Source: Thermoflexia bacterium (GTDB lineage: Bacteria > Chloroflexota > Anaerolineae > B4-G1). From it: DNA of 64,000 nucleotides. The position numbers and the translations under genes are program-made. The notes below the pieces were generated by a model. It saw only the letters and a list, made by a program, of their open reading frames with translations. It did no database searches and was not told where the DNA came from. The DNA is taken from assembly GCA_011192155.1 (NCBI GenBank), contig DUEK01000008.1:1-64000 (forward strand), read 5' to 3'. Of this stretch, positions 1-22,055 are shown one piece after another (position 1 is the first letter of the stretch; each line of letters begins with the position of its first letter).

Positions 1-179
1 ATTAGATAATTTGATGAGATCGCCGCTTCACACTGATAGATTCTCTCAAAAAACCTCTGTGTGTCTCGGTGAATTCTCCGTGAGTCTCTGTGTAATCATA
101 AACTTGGCAAAAGTGTCCGGTAGCAAATAGCTTGTCAACAGATTGCTGATTGATCGCCGGTCAAAATCAGGTTTCTCTT

Positions 180-1763
180 TTAGCTCAAAGGTCTGACGAC
201 CTCCAAATCTGGCTGTTGGTCTGTCTTCTGAACCCGCTCTTTACCCTTTTCCTCTGCCATCCGCCGGTACGAACCCCAATAAGCGTCCACCGATCTCGAT
301 GTGCGGTATTTAGCCAGCACCTCGTTGCGCGCCTTGCGGCCCAACGTCTGGCGCGCCTCATCGTTTTGAAGCAATTTGATCACGCCCGCCGCCAGATCAG
401 CGGGGTCCCCGGGCTTGCAGACCACGCCAAAACCCTCCAGCGCCTCCCGCACCCCGCCCACGTCGGTCGCCACCACCGGCCGCCCACACGACATGGATTC
501 CAACACGGTATAGGGAAAGCCCTCAGAGATGCTGGTCAGGATGCTGATGTCGCCCTCGACAAATATCTTGGCCGGTTCGCTGTGGTATCCGGCCAACTCG
601 AACGTCTCTTCCAATTCCAGTTCGGCGATCAGCGCGCGGCACTCTTCCACGTAAGGCGGGTCGGCGGTCAGCGAGCCATAGACGGTGAACTTGACGTCGG
701 GTATGGTCTGGCGCACGATAGCAGCGGTGTGGATCATGGTCAGGATGTCCTTGAGAGGAAAAACACGGGCCGCAGCCACCACAGTCGGCCGGCCCTGGCT
801 CTTTGCCGGCTTGGACGCAGGTACGAACATCTCAGGGTTGACGCCGTTGTAGATGGTTTGCAATTTTTCCTCCGGCACGCCGTACAGCCGTTCCCACTTT
901 TGGTTAAAGTTGCACACCGGCGAGATCTGGTCAGCGTAGGCGTAGCACAAGCGCGACATAAAGGCCGACAGGTTGATCAGAAAGCGCTTGAGGAAATAGG
1001 TCATATCGGTAGCCGAGACGTGGATATAGCGCTCGCGGATATATACGCCGTGCTCGGTCAGCAACATCGGCGTGCCGTATTCCAGCTTGGCGATCACGCT
1101 GGCCAACCCAACGAAAGCGGCAATGGTGGCGTGGGTGATATCGGTATTGGGGATGGGCGCGTTCAACACCATCAGCAGCTTGTTCAGCCAGCGCAGCGCG
1201 GTGGTCAGATCGTAGAGATTGGGTATCTCTTCAGGCGCAAAGTCGTCGGGCCGCTCGCGGTAGGGGCGCAACATCTCTTCCTGAAAAACCTCCCACACCT
1301 GCTGTGCCTTAAAGCTCTCGACGTAATCATATTGTCGGAAGTAGTGATACAGTTCGTGGATCACGCGCCCGTAAGGGGCCATATTCAGACTGGTCTCTTC
1401 CAGACCATGCAAAAAGCGGCGAAAGAGGGGGATGAACTTTTCCTCAATGATCTGCGGGGTAGTATCCTGCTTGTGCTGGTAGATATCTGAAAAGAGCACA
1501 TCGGGCAAGATGAACTCGGCCGGCTCCTCCGTGCCCCACAGCGGGACGTGGATGAGTTGCTTCACATTGTCCATCAACTCGTATCTGAGTTTGACGTTGG
1601 GATCACCCGTGATGGCGCAAACGTAATAGTCCACCCGCTTGTCCGGCTCGTCCGGCGGCCTGTTAAATTCTCGTACCAGGATATCACACCACGTGCTGAC
1701 ACCCCCACCCACGAAAGGGTAGGTGCCCTCGGTTTCCAATAGAACTGAGATATGCTCGCTCAT
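180..1763 (-). CDS. GT4-family glycosyltransferase, PelF-like
   Basis: ORF 180..1835; likely start MSEHISVLLETEGTYPFVGGGVSTW; PelF-like N-terminus and GT-B donor-site motif SEGFPYTVLESMSCGRPVVATDVGG. Confidence 0.85.
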   Translation of the reverse strand: MSEHISVLLETEGTYPFVGGGVSTWCDILVREFNRPPDEPDKRVDYYVCAITGDPNVKLRYELMDNVKQLIHVPLWGTEEPAEFILPDVLFSDIYQHKQDTTPQIIEEKFIPLFRRFLHGLEETSLNMAPYGRVIHELYHYFRQYDYVESFKAQQVWEVFQEEMLRPYRERPDDFAPEEIPNLYDLTTALRWLNKLLMVLNAPIPNTDITHATIAAFVGLASVIAKLEYGTPMLLTEHGVYIRERYIHVSATDMTYFLKRFLINLSAFMSRLCYAYADQISPVCNFNQKWERLYGVPEEKLQTIYNGVNPEMFVPASKPAKSQGRPTVVAAARVFPLKDILTMIHTAAIVRQTIPDVKFTVYGSLTADPPYVEECRALIAELELEETFELAGYHSEPAKIFVEGDISILTSISEGFPYTVLESMSCGRPVVATDVGGVREALEGFGVVCKPGDPADLAAGVIKLLQNDEARQTLGRKARNEVLAKYRTSRSVDAYWGSYRRMAEEKGKERVQKTDQQPDLEVVRPLS

Positions 1764-14925: not shown

Positions 14926-15909
14926 CTAAGCGGTAGCCGCCGCTGCCTTGCGCGCTTTTTTCTTCTTCCGCCGGGCTGCGCGGACCAGAGCAGTGCCGCG
15001 CATCGTCGGGTCCAGCGCATCTCGCAGGCCATCGCCCACAAAGTTAAAGGCCAACATGGTAAAAGTAATCGCCAATCCTGGGAAAATGGTCAGGTGAGGC
15101 GAGGAACGCAGACCCCGCCAGCCCTCGCTCAACATCTGCCCCCAACTGGGGTAGGGCGGCGGTACGCCCAGACCGATGAAACTGAGCACTGCCTCGGTGA
15201 GGATCAGGCCGGGAATACCCAGTGTCAACGTCACGACGGCCGGCCCCAGGCTGTTGGGCAATAGGTGACGGGAGATGATGCGGGCCGGGCCGGCGCCGAC
15301 CATCTGCGCCGCCAGGACGTACTCTTTCTCTCGCAGGGACAGGAACTGTCCCCGAATCAGCCGGGCCATACCCATCCACCCCACGATACCGATGGCGATA
15401 AAGATGTTGATCATACCCTGGATAGCGGTTTCCGCTGGCAGTACCACCATGACCAGGATGATAAAGAGCAGGGTGGGAAAGCCGTACATCACGTCCACAA
15501 AGCGCATCATCAGGTTATCCACCTGGCCGCCCAGATAGCCGGCGATGGAGCCATAGGTGATGCCAATGATCAGCGAGGTCAATGAACCCACGACGCCGAC
15601 GGTGAGGGAGACACGCGTGCCCCACCAGATGCGGCTAAAGACATCCCGGCCCATCTTGTCGGTACCAAAGATGTGATCGGCCCGTGGAGCGATGCGGGTA
15701 TTATCATAGTCCGCCTCACGATAAGAATAGGGGGGGAGAAAATCCCCGGTGATAAAGCAGAAAACCATGAGGGCGATAAATAGCAACCCAGCCAATGACA
15801 TGCGGTTGCGCAGCAACCGATGCCAGGCATCCTGCCATAGGCTCACCCCTCGTTCAGCAAACTGTTCCTCTTCCTCTCGTCTGCGTCGCTCGGAAGCAGT
15901 CTCAGCCAT
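14926..15909 (-). CDS. Oligopeptide ABC transporter permease, OppC/DppC family
   Basis: DHIFGTDKMGRDVFSRIWWGTRVSL N-terminal motif; BPD_transp signature region. Confidence 0.92.
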   Translation of the reverse strand: MAETASERRRREEEEQFAERGVSLWQDAWHRLLRNRMSLAGLLFIALMVFCFITGDFLPPYSYREADYDNTRIAPRADHIFGTDKMGRDVFSRIWWGTRVSLTVGVVGSLTSLIIGITYGSIAGYLGGQVDNLMMRFVDVMYGFPTLLFIILVMVVLPAETAIQGMINIFIAIGIVGWMGMARLIRGQFLSLREKEYVLAAQMVGAGPARIISRHLLPNSLGPAVVTLTLGIPGLILTEAVLSFIGLGVPPPYPSWGQMLSEGWRGLRSSPHLTIFPGLAITFTMLAFNFVGDGLRDALDPTMRGTALVRAARRKKKKARKAAAATA

Positions 15910-15944: not shown

Positions 15945-15980
15945 AGAAACCAGGTTTTTTCAGAAAAAACCTGGTTTCTT
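15945..15980. repeat. R1-core hairpin AGAAACCAGGTTTTTTCAGAAAAAACCTGGTTTCTT between oppB and oppC
   Basis: Near-perfect inverted repeat; overlaps the stop codon of the upstream permease. Confidence 0.85.
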
Positions 15981-17112
15981 AATCGAACCGGATGCGCGGA
16001 TCAATGAACCCGTATGCAACGTCCACGATCAGGTTGAACAGTACCAGTACCCCCGAGTAAATGATGATCGTACCCATGATCAAAGTATAGTCACGGTCGG
16101 TGACCGCGCTGACAAAGAACTTGCCAATGCCGCCGATGGAAAAGACCCACTCCACCATGAACGAGCCGGTGAGCCAGGCAGCCATCAGTGGGCCTAGAAC
16201 TGTTGTCACCGGGATGAGCGAGTTCTTTAACGCGTGGCGGACAATGACGACCTGCTCCGTCAACCCTTTGGCCCGGGCGGTGCGGATGTAATCAGCGCGG
16301 ATGACCTCTAGCATGCTGGCGCGGGTCAGCCGGGCGATGATGGCCATACCGCCCGTGCCGAGCGTGATGGCCGGCAAGATCACCTGTTTCCAGTTCTCCC
16401 CCCAGCCATAAGTAGGCAGCCACTCCAGAGTCAAGGCAAAGACCAGGATCAACAAGATGCCCAGGAGAAAATTGGGAACAGAGACACCCAACATGGAAAA
16501 GAACATTGCCACGTAATCCACCGCGCTATTCTGCTTCAGAGCAGAGACGATGCCCAGGGGCACGCCGATGAGAAGAGCCATACAGACGGAGACCAGCCCT
16601 ACCTGAGCCGAGACCATGACCGGCGCCAGCGAAAAGAAGCGCTTGATAACATCAAGGCGGGTTCTCCAATTTATGCCAATGTAGCCCACCACCTCTCTAT
16701 TGGTCTTGACCACCAGAGCCTCGGAATCAAACAGGCCCGGCGGCTCGGCAAAAGTCATCGAACTGGCTTGCACATCGTAACTGGCCCGCAACTGGTCGCG
16801 CAGCACCTCTACCATATAGTTGGGGCCAAAGAGCATGCTGGTGACCGTCCGACCAGGCCGCCGCAAGGAAGGGCCAAAGTCAAAGTGCAGCAACAACCGG
16901 TCCATATAGCTGAGGTACTGCTGCCACACCGGCTTGTCCAGCCCATACTTGGCTTCCATATTAGCTCGGATCTCTGGCGGCACCGGCCGGCCAGACGCGC
17001 TGCCCGAGAAGGGGCCTCCCGGCACGAGCTGCATCATCCCAAAGGTGACGACAGAGATCAGGAGCAGCACCGGAATATTCCACAAAATTCGCTGTACGAT
17101 AAATCTTTGCAT
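15979..17112 (-). CDS. Oligopeptide ABC transporter permease, OppB/DppB family
   Basis: MQRFIVQRILWNIPVLLLISVVTFGMMQLVPGGPF; permease motifs. Confidence 0.92.
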   Translation of the reverse strand: MQRFIVQRILWNIPVLLLISVVTFGMMQLVPGGPFSGSASGRPVPPEIRANMEAKYGLDKPVWQQYLSYMDRLLLHFDFGPSLRRPGRTVTSMLFGPNYMVEVLRDQLRASYDVQASSMTFAEPPGLFDSEALVVKTNREVVGYIGINWRTRLDVIKRFFSLAPVMVSAQVGLVSVCMALLIGVPLGIVSALKQNSAVDYVAMFFSMLGVSVPNFLLGILLILVFALTLEWLPTYGWGENWKQVILPAITLGTGGMAIIARLTRASMLEVIRADYIRTARAKGLTEQVVIVRHALKNSLIPVTTVLGPLMAAWLTGSFMVEWVFSIGGIGKFFVSAVTDRDYTLIMGTIIIYSGVLVLFNLIVDVAYGFIDPRIRFD

Positions 17113-17962: not shown

Positions 17963-19681
17963 CTAGTTGTTGCACTCGTCAAGCGTATCCAGGTAAGCGG
18001 CCCATTCCATGATGGCTACGTTGACATTGATGCCGAGGTTGGTCTCCCACTGCTCGGCGACCGCGTCGAGGGTGTCCTCGTTGCCACGGTTGTACCAGAT
18101 ATTGACGGTGATGTCACCTGGATCGGCAACATCCGCCTCAGCCATGTAGGCATCCAGGTATCCCAGAGCGGCGTCCACGTCGAACTCGTAGCCGACCTCG
18201 CCACAACCCTGGTAGCCAGGGATGCCCGGAGGCACCACGCCGCACGCCACGTTGCGCCAGGGCATTTCCAGCACGTTGTCGAGGATGGCGCGCTTGTTGA
18301 TGGAGGAAGCCAGAGCTTTGCGCATATTCAGGTTGTCCGTGGGCGGGCGGAGGAAGTTAAAGCCGATGTAGTAGGGACCAGGACGAACCAGAACGCGGAT
18401 GTGATCGGGTGTCTCCTCCAGGAGGCGCGTTATTTCCTCGCTGGGGAAAAGACCAACATCCAACTCGCCCCGCTCGTAAGCGGCCAGCGCGGTGGCGTTC
18501 TCGACGATGATGGGGAACTCGACCCGCTCGATGGTCACGTCTGCCGCGCCCCAGTAGTCGGGGTTCTTGTCAATGGCGACGTAATCCTCGTGCGCCCACT
18601 CGGTCAGCAGGTAAGCGCCGTTGCCCACAAAGTTGCCGGGTTCGGCCCACAGATCGCCATACTCTTCGATGACGTCCAGGCGGACGGGGTAAGTGGTGGA
18701 AAAGGCCAGGATGCTGTCAAAGTAGGAGGCCGCCTCTTCCAGTGTGATCTCTAGCGTCAGGTCGTCAACGGCCTTTACGCCCAAGGTGGAGGGGTCGTCG
18801 GTCTCGCCGGTGTTAAAGGCCTCAGCGCCCTGGACGATGTACATCAACCAGGCGTACTCGGCCGCCGTCGCCGGCTCCAGCAAGCGCGTGATGCCGTCCA
18901 CATAGTGCTGGGCGGTCACAGGCTCGCCATCGGACCACAGAGCGCCTTCGCGCAACTGGATGGTGTAAACCAGCCCATCCTCGGATACCTCATAGCTCAC
19001 AGCGCCGGCCGGTTCAATGGTGCCATCGGCCTTGTACTCGTAGAGAGAATCCATGATCTGGTGCTGGATCAGGTGCGAGGTGGTGTCGGTAGCGGTGTTC
19101 ACGTCCAGCGTGGGCGGCTCGGTGCCAATCGCGACCCGCAGCGTGGTCTGGCCCTCGGGCAAGCGCCAGTGCTTGTAGGGGGGCGAGCCAAAGGGCGGGT
19201 AGACGGCCTCGATCTCAGGCCGCAACAGCGCGGTGCGGTCATAGTAAAAGATAGGAGCAAAGGCCGCGTAATCGGTCATCATGATTTGCTCGGCCTGTTT
19301 CCACAACTCTGCGCGGGCTGCGGAGTCAAACTCTACCAGCGCCTGGTCCACCAGGTCGACGTAGGTCTCGTCATACCAGAAGCTGTACTGGAACGGGGAA
19401 TCGGGGTGGTAGACGACGTTGAGGACGTTCTCAGCATCGCCATAGTCCATCACCCAACCCATGCGGTAGGCGTTGTAGGTGCAGCCAGCGCCCAGGCCCG
19501 GCTCCGCCGTCACTTCGATGATCTCGGGCGGAACTGTCACCTCAACGGGGACCTCGACCTCGACCTCCTCGGGCGGGGCCGTGATAACCACGGTTTGAAC
19601 TTCGCCCCCACCGCAAGCAGTGAGCGTCAACGCTAAGAGCGTCACTACAGAAGCAAGGATATACCACTTTCTAGAAAACAT
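17963..19681 (-). CDS. Oligopeptide ABC transporter substrate-binding lipoprotein (SBP_bac_5), apparently circularly permuted
   Basis: Lipoprotein signal MFSRKWYILASVVTLLALTLTAC; SBP_bac_5 motifs in non-canonical order (see findings). Confidence 0.93.
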   Translation of the reverse strand: MFSRKWYILASVVTLLALTLTACGGGEVQTVVITAPPEEVEVEVPVEVTVPPEIIEVTAEPGLGAGCTYNAYRMGWVMDYGDAENVLNVVYHPDSPFQYSFWYDETYVDLVDQALVEFDSAARAELWKQAEQIMMTDYAAFAPIFYYDRTALLRPEIEAVYPPFGSPPYKHWRLPEGQTTLRVAIGTEPPTLDVNTATDTTSHLIQHQIMDSLYEYKADGTIEPAGAVSYEVSEDGLVYTIQLREGALWSDGEPVTAQHYVDGITRLLEPATAAEYAWLMYIVQGAEAFNTGETDDPSTLGVKAVDDLTLEITLEEAASYFDSILAFSTTYPVRLDVIEEYGDLWAEPGNFVGNGAYLLTEWAHEDYVAIDKNPDYWGAADVTIERVEFPIIVENATALAAYERGELDVGLFPSEEITRLLEETPDHIRVLVRPGPYYIGFNFLRPPTDNLNMRKALASSINKRAILDNVLEMPWRNVACGVVPPGIPGYQGCGEVGYEFDVDAALGYLDAYMAEADVADPGDITVNIWYNRGNEDTLDAVAEQWETNLGINVNVAIMEWAAYLDTLDECNN

Positions 19682-19845
19682 TCTTTCTCCTCCTAAGTTA
19701 GTTTTACGTACAAGCAAGGTTTGTCAACAGCTTCACTCGATCTTTATTCTCTGTCTTCTCAGTAGCCATCACCTCCTTTTGTAATGGTATGCACCCTCCA
19801 AACAGCACTCTTCTCAAGACAACCCGAATCAGGTTGTCAACGTAC

Positions 19846-20847
19846 TTAATTCACTTGGCCAGGTTTCACCAGGTGACAGGCGCAAAAGTGGCCCTTCTTT
19901 ACCTCGACGAACTCCGGTTCCGTCTCAAAGCAGGCATCTATGGCCACCGGGCAACGGGTGTTAAAGTTGCACCCCGCCGGAGGTTTGGACGGACTGGGAA
20001 TATCTCCCTCCAGGATGATGCGCTGCCGCTTTTCCTCGACCACCGGATCCGGCACCGGCACCGCCGACATCAAAGCCTTGGTATAGGGATGGAGCGGGTT
20101 GAGGTAAATCTCGTTCCGGTCGGTCAACTCCATGATCTTGCCCAGATACATCACGGCCATACGGTCGCTGATGTGACGAACCATGCTCAGGTCGTGAGCG
20201 ATGAACAAATAAGTAAGGCCCAACCGTTCCTGCAACTCTTCCAATAGGTTCACTACCTGGGCCTGGATGGAGACATCTAACGATGAGATAGGCTCGTCGC
20301 AGACGATCAGGTCGGGGTTGAGGGCCAGAGCGCGGGCGATGCCGATGCGCTGCCGCTGCCCGCCGGAGAACTCGTGGGGATAGCGGTTGACAAAGTAGGG
20401 ATTGAGGCCCACCATCTTTAAGAGTTCTTGTACCCGTTCGCGCTTCTCTTTTCCCTGGGCAACTGCATGCACCTCAAGCGGTTCGGCAACAATAGAGCCG
20501 ACCGTCATACGCGGGTTCAATGAAGCATAAGGGTCCTGAAAGATCATCTGCATCCGACGGCGCATGTGGCGCAGTTCGCTGCCTTTGAGATCCATCATGT
20601 CCGTGCCGTCAAAGGTCATCTGCCCCTCTGTCGGCTCGTACAGCCGAAGCATTGTCCGGCCTATGGTAGTCTTGCCGCTGCCGGTCTCCCCGACCAGCCC
20701 CAGCGTCTCTCCCTTCTGGATGTCAAAGCTAACGTCGTCCACCGCTCTAACGTCGCCGACGTGGCGCTGTATGATGACGCCCCGCATGATGGGAAAGTAC
20801 TTTTTAAGATTGCGAACTTGTACCAGAGGTATTGTGTCAGCGACCAT
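19846..20847 (-). CDS. Oligopeptide ABC transporter ATP-binding protein, OppF/DppF family
   Basis: Walker [10 protein letters not shown], signature [15 protein letters not shown]-terminal [10 protein letters not shown] oligo_HPY motif; start [18 protein letters not shown]. Confidence 0.93.
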
Positions 20848-21877
20848 CGTCTCCCTCCCAGCGATCTGTATCCACGACGTGTTTCCACTTCCAGCAAGCC
20901 ACAATATGCCCCTCGCCCACCACTTCCTCCAGCGGCGGCATCTCCTCCAGGCACTTGTCCACCGCGTAGATGCACCGGGCAGCGAAGGGGCAACCAGGTG
21001 GCAGGTCAATCAGATCAGGCGGCAGGCCTGGAATGGAGATCAGTTTGGCGCCCGGAGGTGCGTCCAGCCGGGGCAACGATCCCAGCAACCCCCTCGTGTA
21101 GGGATGACGCGGCTGCCCGTAGATATTCTTCACATTGCCCCGCTCGATGATGTAACCGGCATACATCACGTTCACTCTGCTGGCCAGCCCCGCCACGACT
21201 CCCAGGTCGTGGGTGATCCACATCACCGCCATGCCCAGTTGCTCCTGGAGCCGTTTCACCAGATCCAATATCTGGGCCTGGATGGTGACGTCCAGGGCCG
21301 TGGTAGGCTCGTCGGCGATGAGGAGCTTGGGATTGCAAGAAAGAGCCATAGCGATCATTGCTCGCTGGCGCATACCGCCAGAGAACTGATGCGGATAGTC
21401 GTCCAGCCGCTGGTCAGCGTCCGGGATGCCGACTAACGCCAGCAGTTCCCCGGATCGCTCCCGCGCCTGTGCATTGTCCATCCCCTGGTGAAGTTTGAGC
21501 GCCTCCATGATCTGGAAGCCAACCGTGTACACTGGGTTGAGCGAAGTCATTGGGTCCTGAAAGACCATCGCGATTTCCGCACCACGAACGTGGTGCATCT
21601 CGCTCTCGCTCACCTTCAATAGGTCACGCCCATCGAACCAAACTTCCCCCTCCTCAATTCTGCCAGGGGGGCTGGGAATCAAGCGCATAATGGAGAGCGC
21701 ATGGACGCTCTTGCCACAGCCGCTCTCGCCAACGACGCCCAGGGTGCCTCCTTCTTCCATAGCATAGGAGACCCCATTAACAGCGTTCACCACACCATCC
21801 TCGGTGTAAAAGCGGGTGGCAAGGCCTCTTATATCAAGCAAGATATTTGGAGATCGAGTTTGCCCCTGTTCAGACAT
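20837..21877 (-). CDS. Oligopeptide ABC transporter ATP-binding protein, OppD/DppD family
   Basis: [22 protein letters not shown], oligo_HPY C-terminus; overlaps the OppF gene. Confidence 0.93.
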
Positions 21878-22055
21878 AAACCCCCCTTTTGGTATAGATA
21901 AGAGAATACACAACGTTCAGAGCAAAAAGCACTTTACATTATACCCAATTGCCATAAAAACGCAAGCTCATCAGCAAATTATTGCCTGGTGGATCAAATC
22001 AAGGTTGCGTTCTCCCCACCTACTCTTATTTCCAAAGTAAATGCGCCCCAAATAT

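Follow-up and report, generated by a model that had tools for sequence, protein, structure and literature searches.

Circular permutation of an OppA-type substrate-binding lipoprotein in a Chloroflexota opp operon and recurrent order changes in the SBP_bac_5 family

At 17963-19681, the minus strand of the window (the whole 64,000-nucleotide stretch analysed, from contig DUEK01000008.1 of a Thermoflexia bacterium) very probably encodes an OppA-type cluster C lipoprotein that is naturally circularly permuted and serves the surrounding OppBCDF importer. In this 572-aa protein the C-terminal ~107 residues stand directly after the lipobox and linker, and their tail is joined to the normal N-terminus (Table 1). 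The circular permutation proposed in the preliminary description was borne out by the swapped homology both to PDB chains and to the nearest canonical proteins, by the lack of a second copy on the contig and by conservation of the order in seven genomes.

Table 1. Gene, protein parts and operon neighbours in the window, and cut points of permuted SBP_bac_5 proteins on the mapping profile
Feature	Position	Strand	Basis or remark
Circularly permuted SBP_bac_5 (OppA-type) lipoprotein, 572 aa	17963..19681	-	ATG at 19681, TAG at 17963-17965
AGGAGG ribosome-binding site before ATG at 19681	19689..19694	-	sequence
Signal peptide and lipobox, aa 1-23, end LTAC (aa 20-23)	19613..19681	-	sequence
Tether rich in acidic residues, Val and Pro, aa 24-66	19484..19612	-	sequence; last part pLDDT < 50 in model
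Cys67, adjoins the domain's new N-terminus	19481..19483	-	kept in 7/7 type-A proteins
Moved C-terminal segment, aa 67-172 (OppA 8are 419-512)	19166..19483	-	phmmer alignment
Joint of old C- and N-termini, RLPEGQTT, aa 173-180	19142..19165	-	sequence
Original N-terminal part, aa 181-572 (OppA 8are 17-415), end ...EWAAYLDTLDECNN	17966..19141	-	phmmer
Cys570, adjoins new C-terminus	17972..17974	-	kept in 7/7 type-A proteins
OppB-type permease, same operon	15979..17112	-	80-82% identical copies beside type-A genes elsewhere
OppC-type permease	14926..15909	-	operon context
OppF-type ATPase	19846..21009	-	coding start inside ORF
OppD-type ATPase	20837..21913	-	coding start inside ORF
Break A	profile ~395		7 proteins, including the 17963-19681 product
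Break B	profile 100-125		73 proteins; PDB alignment: 8are 132|138
Break C	profile 250-277		17 proteins; PDB alignment: near OppA 288
Break D	profile 197		4 proteins, in large ORFs; PDB alignment: near OppA 200
Break E	profile 344		3 proteins; PDB alignment: near 8are 356|366

Segment order, operon and conservation

In phmmer searches against PDB chains, aa 176-568 matched residues 17-415 of B. subtilis OppA (8are) and aa 69-163 matched residues 419-512, and Y. pestis OppA (2z23) gave the same two-stretch swapped match. Homology to OppA spanned the whole length, but the blocks did not follow the usual linear order. The matches were all to SBP_bac_5 chains, and the type I / cluster B sugar-binding fold (Cluster Bc) was not found among them. 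Scoring 225 bits against the curated PF00496 cut-off of 32.4, the protein belongs to SBP_bac_5; Pfam reported a single match (aa 222-566, profile 2-333 of 368), because PF00496 is a model of the central part alone, beyond which most of the moved piece lies. The two swapped matches that had been predicted from an HMM alignment were thus obtained by phmmer with whole PDB chains, but, for this breakpoint, not with PF00496 itself. A duplicated segment, or a second copy downstream, had been named in advance as evidence against a permutation; neither segment was found again downstream or elsewhere on contig DUEK01000008.1, and the assembly had just one further close copy, a domain of canonical order within a 2237-codon ORF of contig C106.

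The remaining features of the gene described beforehand were also recovered. The protein ends at the TAG codon exactly at the point where the canonical protein would continue, the old termini are fused through a short joint without spare residues, and the signal is retained ahead of the moved segment; a lipobox is present in 6/6 type-A proteins (those sharing break A) with a complete 5′ end. The SBP gene is flanked by oppD, oppF, oppB and oppC, as in relatives, and is the only SBP gene between oppF and oppB. Within the moved segment, R73, W76 and D79 align with R413, W416 and D419 of OppA, which belong to its peptide site.

The preliminary description had suggested looking for homologues of the same order; six other genomes encode such proteins, 62-80% identical and colinear from end to end. 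Five of these genomes (G002, G004, G011, G034 and G028) came from a search of 59 relatives, and G216 (protein L059) is the seventh overall when the source genome is counted. The protein of G002 (DSAR01000579.1, a Chloroflexi MAG) is 78% identical, and the G004 gene is truncated at its 5′ end by a contig edge; most genomes in the comparison are drafts, many of them probably metagenome-assembled. The nearest canonical proteins, L039, L040 and L042, are 56-59% identical and match in the order 185-572 then 65-175. The D-F-SBP-B-C gene order is common to canonical L042 and the permuted loci, as far as the contigs reach. Of five type-A pairs compared, four had a whole-gene dN/dS of 0.16-0.23 and the most distant one had 0.38; values well under 1 were also obtained for the moved segment and for the stretch spanning the joint. 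As judged from these ratios, the type-A gene is under purifying selection.

These data bear on two alternative readings. The source assembly is a draft genome of 178 contigs, 83% complete, in which the halves of a canonical gene might have been joined in the wrong order during assembly or binning; however, the six additional genomes share the order together with the flanking genes where the contig reaches, and other permutants sit in single-contig genomes (e.g., G441, G625, G637 and G056), so that such an artefact has almost no chance of being the explanation. Nor does the locus look like a decaying gene or a functionless recombination remnant, a reading to which we give a very small probability: the frame is open, the ribosome-binding site and lipobox are in place, the gene is kept in seven genomes with low dN/dS in both segments, and the operon offers no other SBP gene at this position.

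Cut site and predicted structure

Across the cut, the canonical sisters read ...YLDYLDQCNNSKEELAACEFNAYRMGW..., while the permuted protein ends ...YLDTLDECNN and its domain starts GLGAGCTYNAYRMGW. A short loop flanked by two Cys is lost at the cut. Both residues remain, one next to each new terminus, and the Cys pair noted beforehand is present in all seven permuted type-A proteins. The two Cys flank an uncut loop in canonical L039 (CNNSKEELAAC), L040, L042, L003 and L015, and likewise in L068, a protein cut at break B. Since canonical relatives have a Cys-loop-Cys at the site of the cut, and 7/7 type-A proteins keep both residues, a disulfide Cys67-Cys570 closing the cut is plausible, and the circumstantial support that the sequences lend to this idea is strong. 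The new termini would lie close together, judging solely from the short loop that separates the equivalent positions in the canonical sisters.

An AlphaFold2 model of aa 51-572, for which the input alignment consisted of type-A proteins and canonical half-fragments, had a mean pLDDT of 93.6 and a pTM of 0.88. Its best Foldseek matches were OppA, DppE and MppA chains (TMq up to 0.66), with ~410 of the 522 columns aligned; full coverage is not expected, because an aligner that proceeds in sequence order loses the moved part. The confident OppA-type model agrees with the normal cluster-C SBP fold anticipated in the preliminary description, and the protein is predicted to adopt the two-lobed type II SBP fold. 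Further, a type-C permutant, L070, gave a model of fair confidence (pLDDT 83.2, pTM 0.81).

Permuted SBP_bac_5 proteins across genomes

A profile of the new junction, with the tail block followed by the head block, was used as the survey query. More than 100 of 396 same-class genomes had a single junction-spanning match among the matches listed. The ORFs concerned are mostly 520-900 codons long and are spread over a great many families, some of them in single-contig genomes. Spanning matches were also found in other classes of the phylum, including the single-contig genomes G441, G570, G625 and G637. In the Actinomycetota control, 3 of 298 genomes (G716, G728 and G768) had spanning matches at E <= 1e-25, and the Modestobacter genome at the centre of that set had none. 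Plasmid records yielded one confirmed permutant, L105 of the Firmicute Subdoligranulum variabile, which lies in an opp operon (OY725879.1 109352-118011), matches OppA 138-522 then 16-132 and is unannotated in the plasmid record. A Phyllobacterium plasmid match (H2) that seemed to span the junction covers two adjacent genes and was rejected, as were the Enterococcus matches H3-H15, which are weak and, where annotated, extend into a second gene. Permuted SBP_bac_5 proteins are common in Chloroflexota and rare in Actinomycetota and on plasmids, in samples of unequal size and with a search not calibrated for prevalence.

Most permuted genes with examined surroundings adjoin oppB/oppC, often also oppD/oppF, and most of the encoded proteins carry a lipobox. 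Automatic annotation and Pfam hide the permutation, because permuted genes match their models like any other substrate-binding protein. In 13 near genomes, ~7 of ~125 SBP_bac_5 matches were permuted, and no split or permuted SBP_bac_1 was found among the matches listed for the same genomes. Several ORFs of near genomes hold two SBP_bac_1 domains, so tandem fusion is not rare there; these are ORFs of 849-924 codons with two tandem PF01547 matches each (G002:C308, G002:C403, G007:C59, G007:C166 and G007:C170). From the small sample of 13 near genomes, the survival of permutants looks specific to SBP_bac_5.

Among 178 SBP_bac_5 proteins collected, a set that the search had enriched for permutants, 104 distinct ones were permuted, and their cuts, mapped on a 507-position profile, fell at five points (Table 1). 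Several ORFs have unusual architectures. L047, L081, L083 and L115 are large, apparent surface proteins with an N-terminal break-D domain, which in L047 is followed by DUF11 repeats. In L050 (4051-10761 on C106 of the source genome), another apparent surface protein, a repeat-rich region, DUF11 and Ig-like domains surround an SBP_bac_5 domain of canonical order. L049 (4133-6652, G053:C178) has an SBP_bac_3-like region apparently fused ahead of a type-B SBP_bac_5 domain in one ORF, and other type-B ORFs of ~790-890 codons may resemble this fusion. The N-terminus of L207 (1219-2856, G570), a type-E permutant, resembles the signal of L206 read out of frame, which suggests a frameshift. L048 (609-3830, G049:C147), a protein-kinase/ATPase-like ORF, ends in the N-terminal half of SBP_bac_5, and the adjacent ORF contains the C-terminal half, a possible sensor fusion with a frameshift.

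To count order changes, a tree was built from 72 rows after rotation of all sequences to canonical order, by a quick search that left some long branches. This tree requires 11 order changes, and its well supported branches alone force 9 canonical-vs-permuted changes. A single origin of all permutants was rejected (AU p = 5e-6), as was break B as one clade (p = 4e-56), in tests whose groups were named after a first view of the data and on a tree without direction of change. Type A formed one clade, to which L068 is sister (SH-aLRT 96-99). Once rotated, L029 and L062 share 64% identity with canonical L018, as calculated with an earlier version of the mapping profile. By this reconstruction, the SBP_bac_5 family would have undergone about 10 order changes at five cut points, mostly in Chloroflexota. 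Tentatively, and with somewhat less than even confidence, we propose that Chloroflexota SBP_bac_5 might be a circular-permutation hot spot, with ~10 independent events in five loops, one loop being reused several times independently, driven by frequent in-frame tandem SBP fusion together with tolerance of, or selection for, tether relocation.

Few natural permutants have close canonical relatives, and it is rarer still for one family to contain several that arose independently at different sites. Pairs such as L029/L062 and canonical L018 would allow direct tests of how permutation affects SBP folding, binding and docking. SBPs serve as biosensor scaffolds that rely on engineered permutants, and natural, working cut sites would be of practical use for them.

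Origin and comparison with known systems

The permuted protein most likely binds peptides for the Opp importer in the ordinary way, with its lipid tether moved to the other lobe. It would fold as a usual two-lobed SBP, bind peptides in the cleft and hand them to OppBC; the lipid anchor would enter at a loop of the C-terminal lobe, not at the normal N-terminus, and the Cys67-Cys570 disulfide probably substitutes for the lost peptide connection.

Most probably, the SBP domain was first duplicated in tandem and in frame, after which the first copy lost its front and the second its tail. Permutation by duplication predicts fused tandem copies (PMC3320104), and L133 (G147:C455, 625-4638) contains two complete, 42% identical SBP_bac_5 domains head to tail with a short linker in one ORF; it is the kind of intermediate that the model predicts, although the type-A clade is not among its close relatives. 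Its tandem domains stand behind an ATPase/TPR-like region. Excision and reinsertion of a segment, or gene fission and fusion, would account for joints that are almost exact, without spare residues, and for the lack of a half-permuted intermediate within the type-A clade; we nevertheless consider such routes improbable, given that fused tandem copies are known in SBP_bac_5 (L133) and that several near genomes' ORFs are fused double SBP_bac_1. Short of a systematic search, no gene for a free half came to notice. It is also debatable whether type A arose directly from a canonical gene. The sister position of L068, a break-B protein, to all seven type-A proteins would suit a second permutation from a type-B permutant of that kind, but two independent permutations from a canonical ancestor cost an equal number of tree changes and canonical L042 branches just outside, so that re-permutation, although a serious alternative, is the less likely course.

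The protein resembles the canonical cluster C members of SBP_bac_5 (PF00496; 8are, 2z23 and E. coli DppA) in its sequence blocks, lipobox, oppBCDF operon, predicted fold and equivalents of R413, W416 and D419. It differs from OppA in that the C-terminal ~107 residues come first, and the new termini and lipid tether lie at a loop of the C-terminal lobe. Other permuted families include saposin/swaposin and DNA methyltransferases, for which duplication is a standard model and, in methyltransferases, intermediates are documented (PMC3320104). Those families have other folds and functions, whereas the permuted SBPs are exported, two-lobed proteins whose export signal has kept its place.

A search of freely accessible published papers returned no report of permuted OppA, DppA or cluster C SBPs, or of repeated permutation in SBP_bac_5. 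Earlier work had described circular permutation as such and, among SBPs, one permuted class (cluster Bc); it is the oligopeptide/dipeptide-family cases for which no report was found. The known class is represented by the circularly permuted TpMglB-2 (Tp0684), a lipoprotein of Treponema pallidum that binds glucose and for which "Cluster Bc" was proposed (PMC4990184). Similar to the protein described here, TpMglB-2 is a natural permutation of an ABC-importer SBP, has a lipid-anchored N-terminus and shares its order with relatives. In contrast, it has a type I / cluster B fold, a sugar ligand, a rearranged N lobe with an extra hinge crossing, and one topology, and its permutation is a separate event in another family. 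The authors of its structure likewise asked whether the moved lipid tether matters (PMC4990184).
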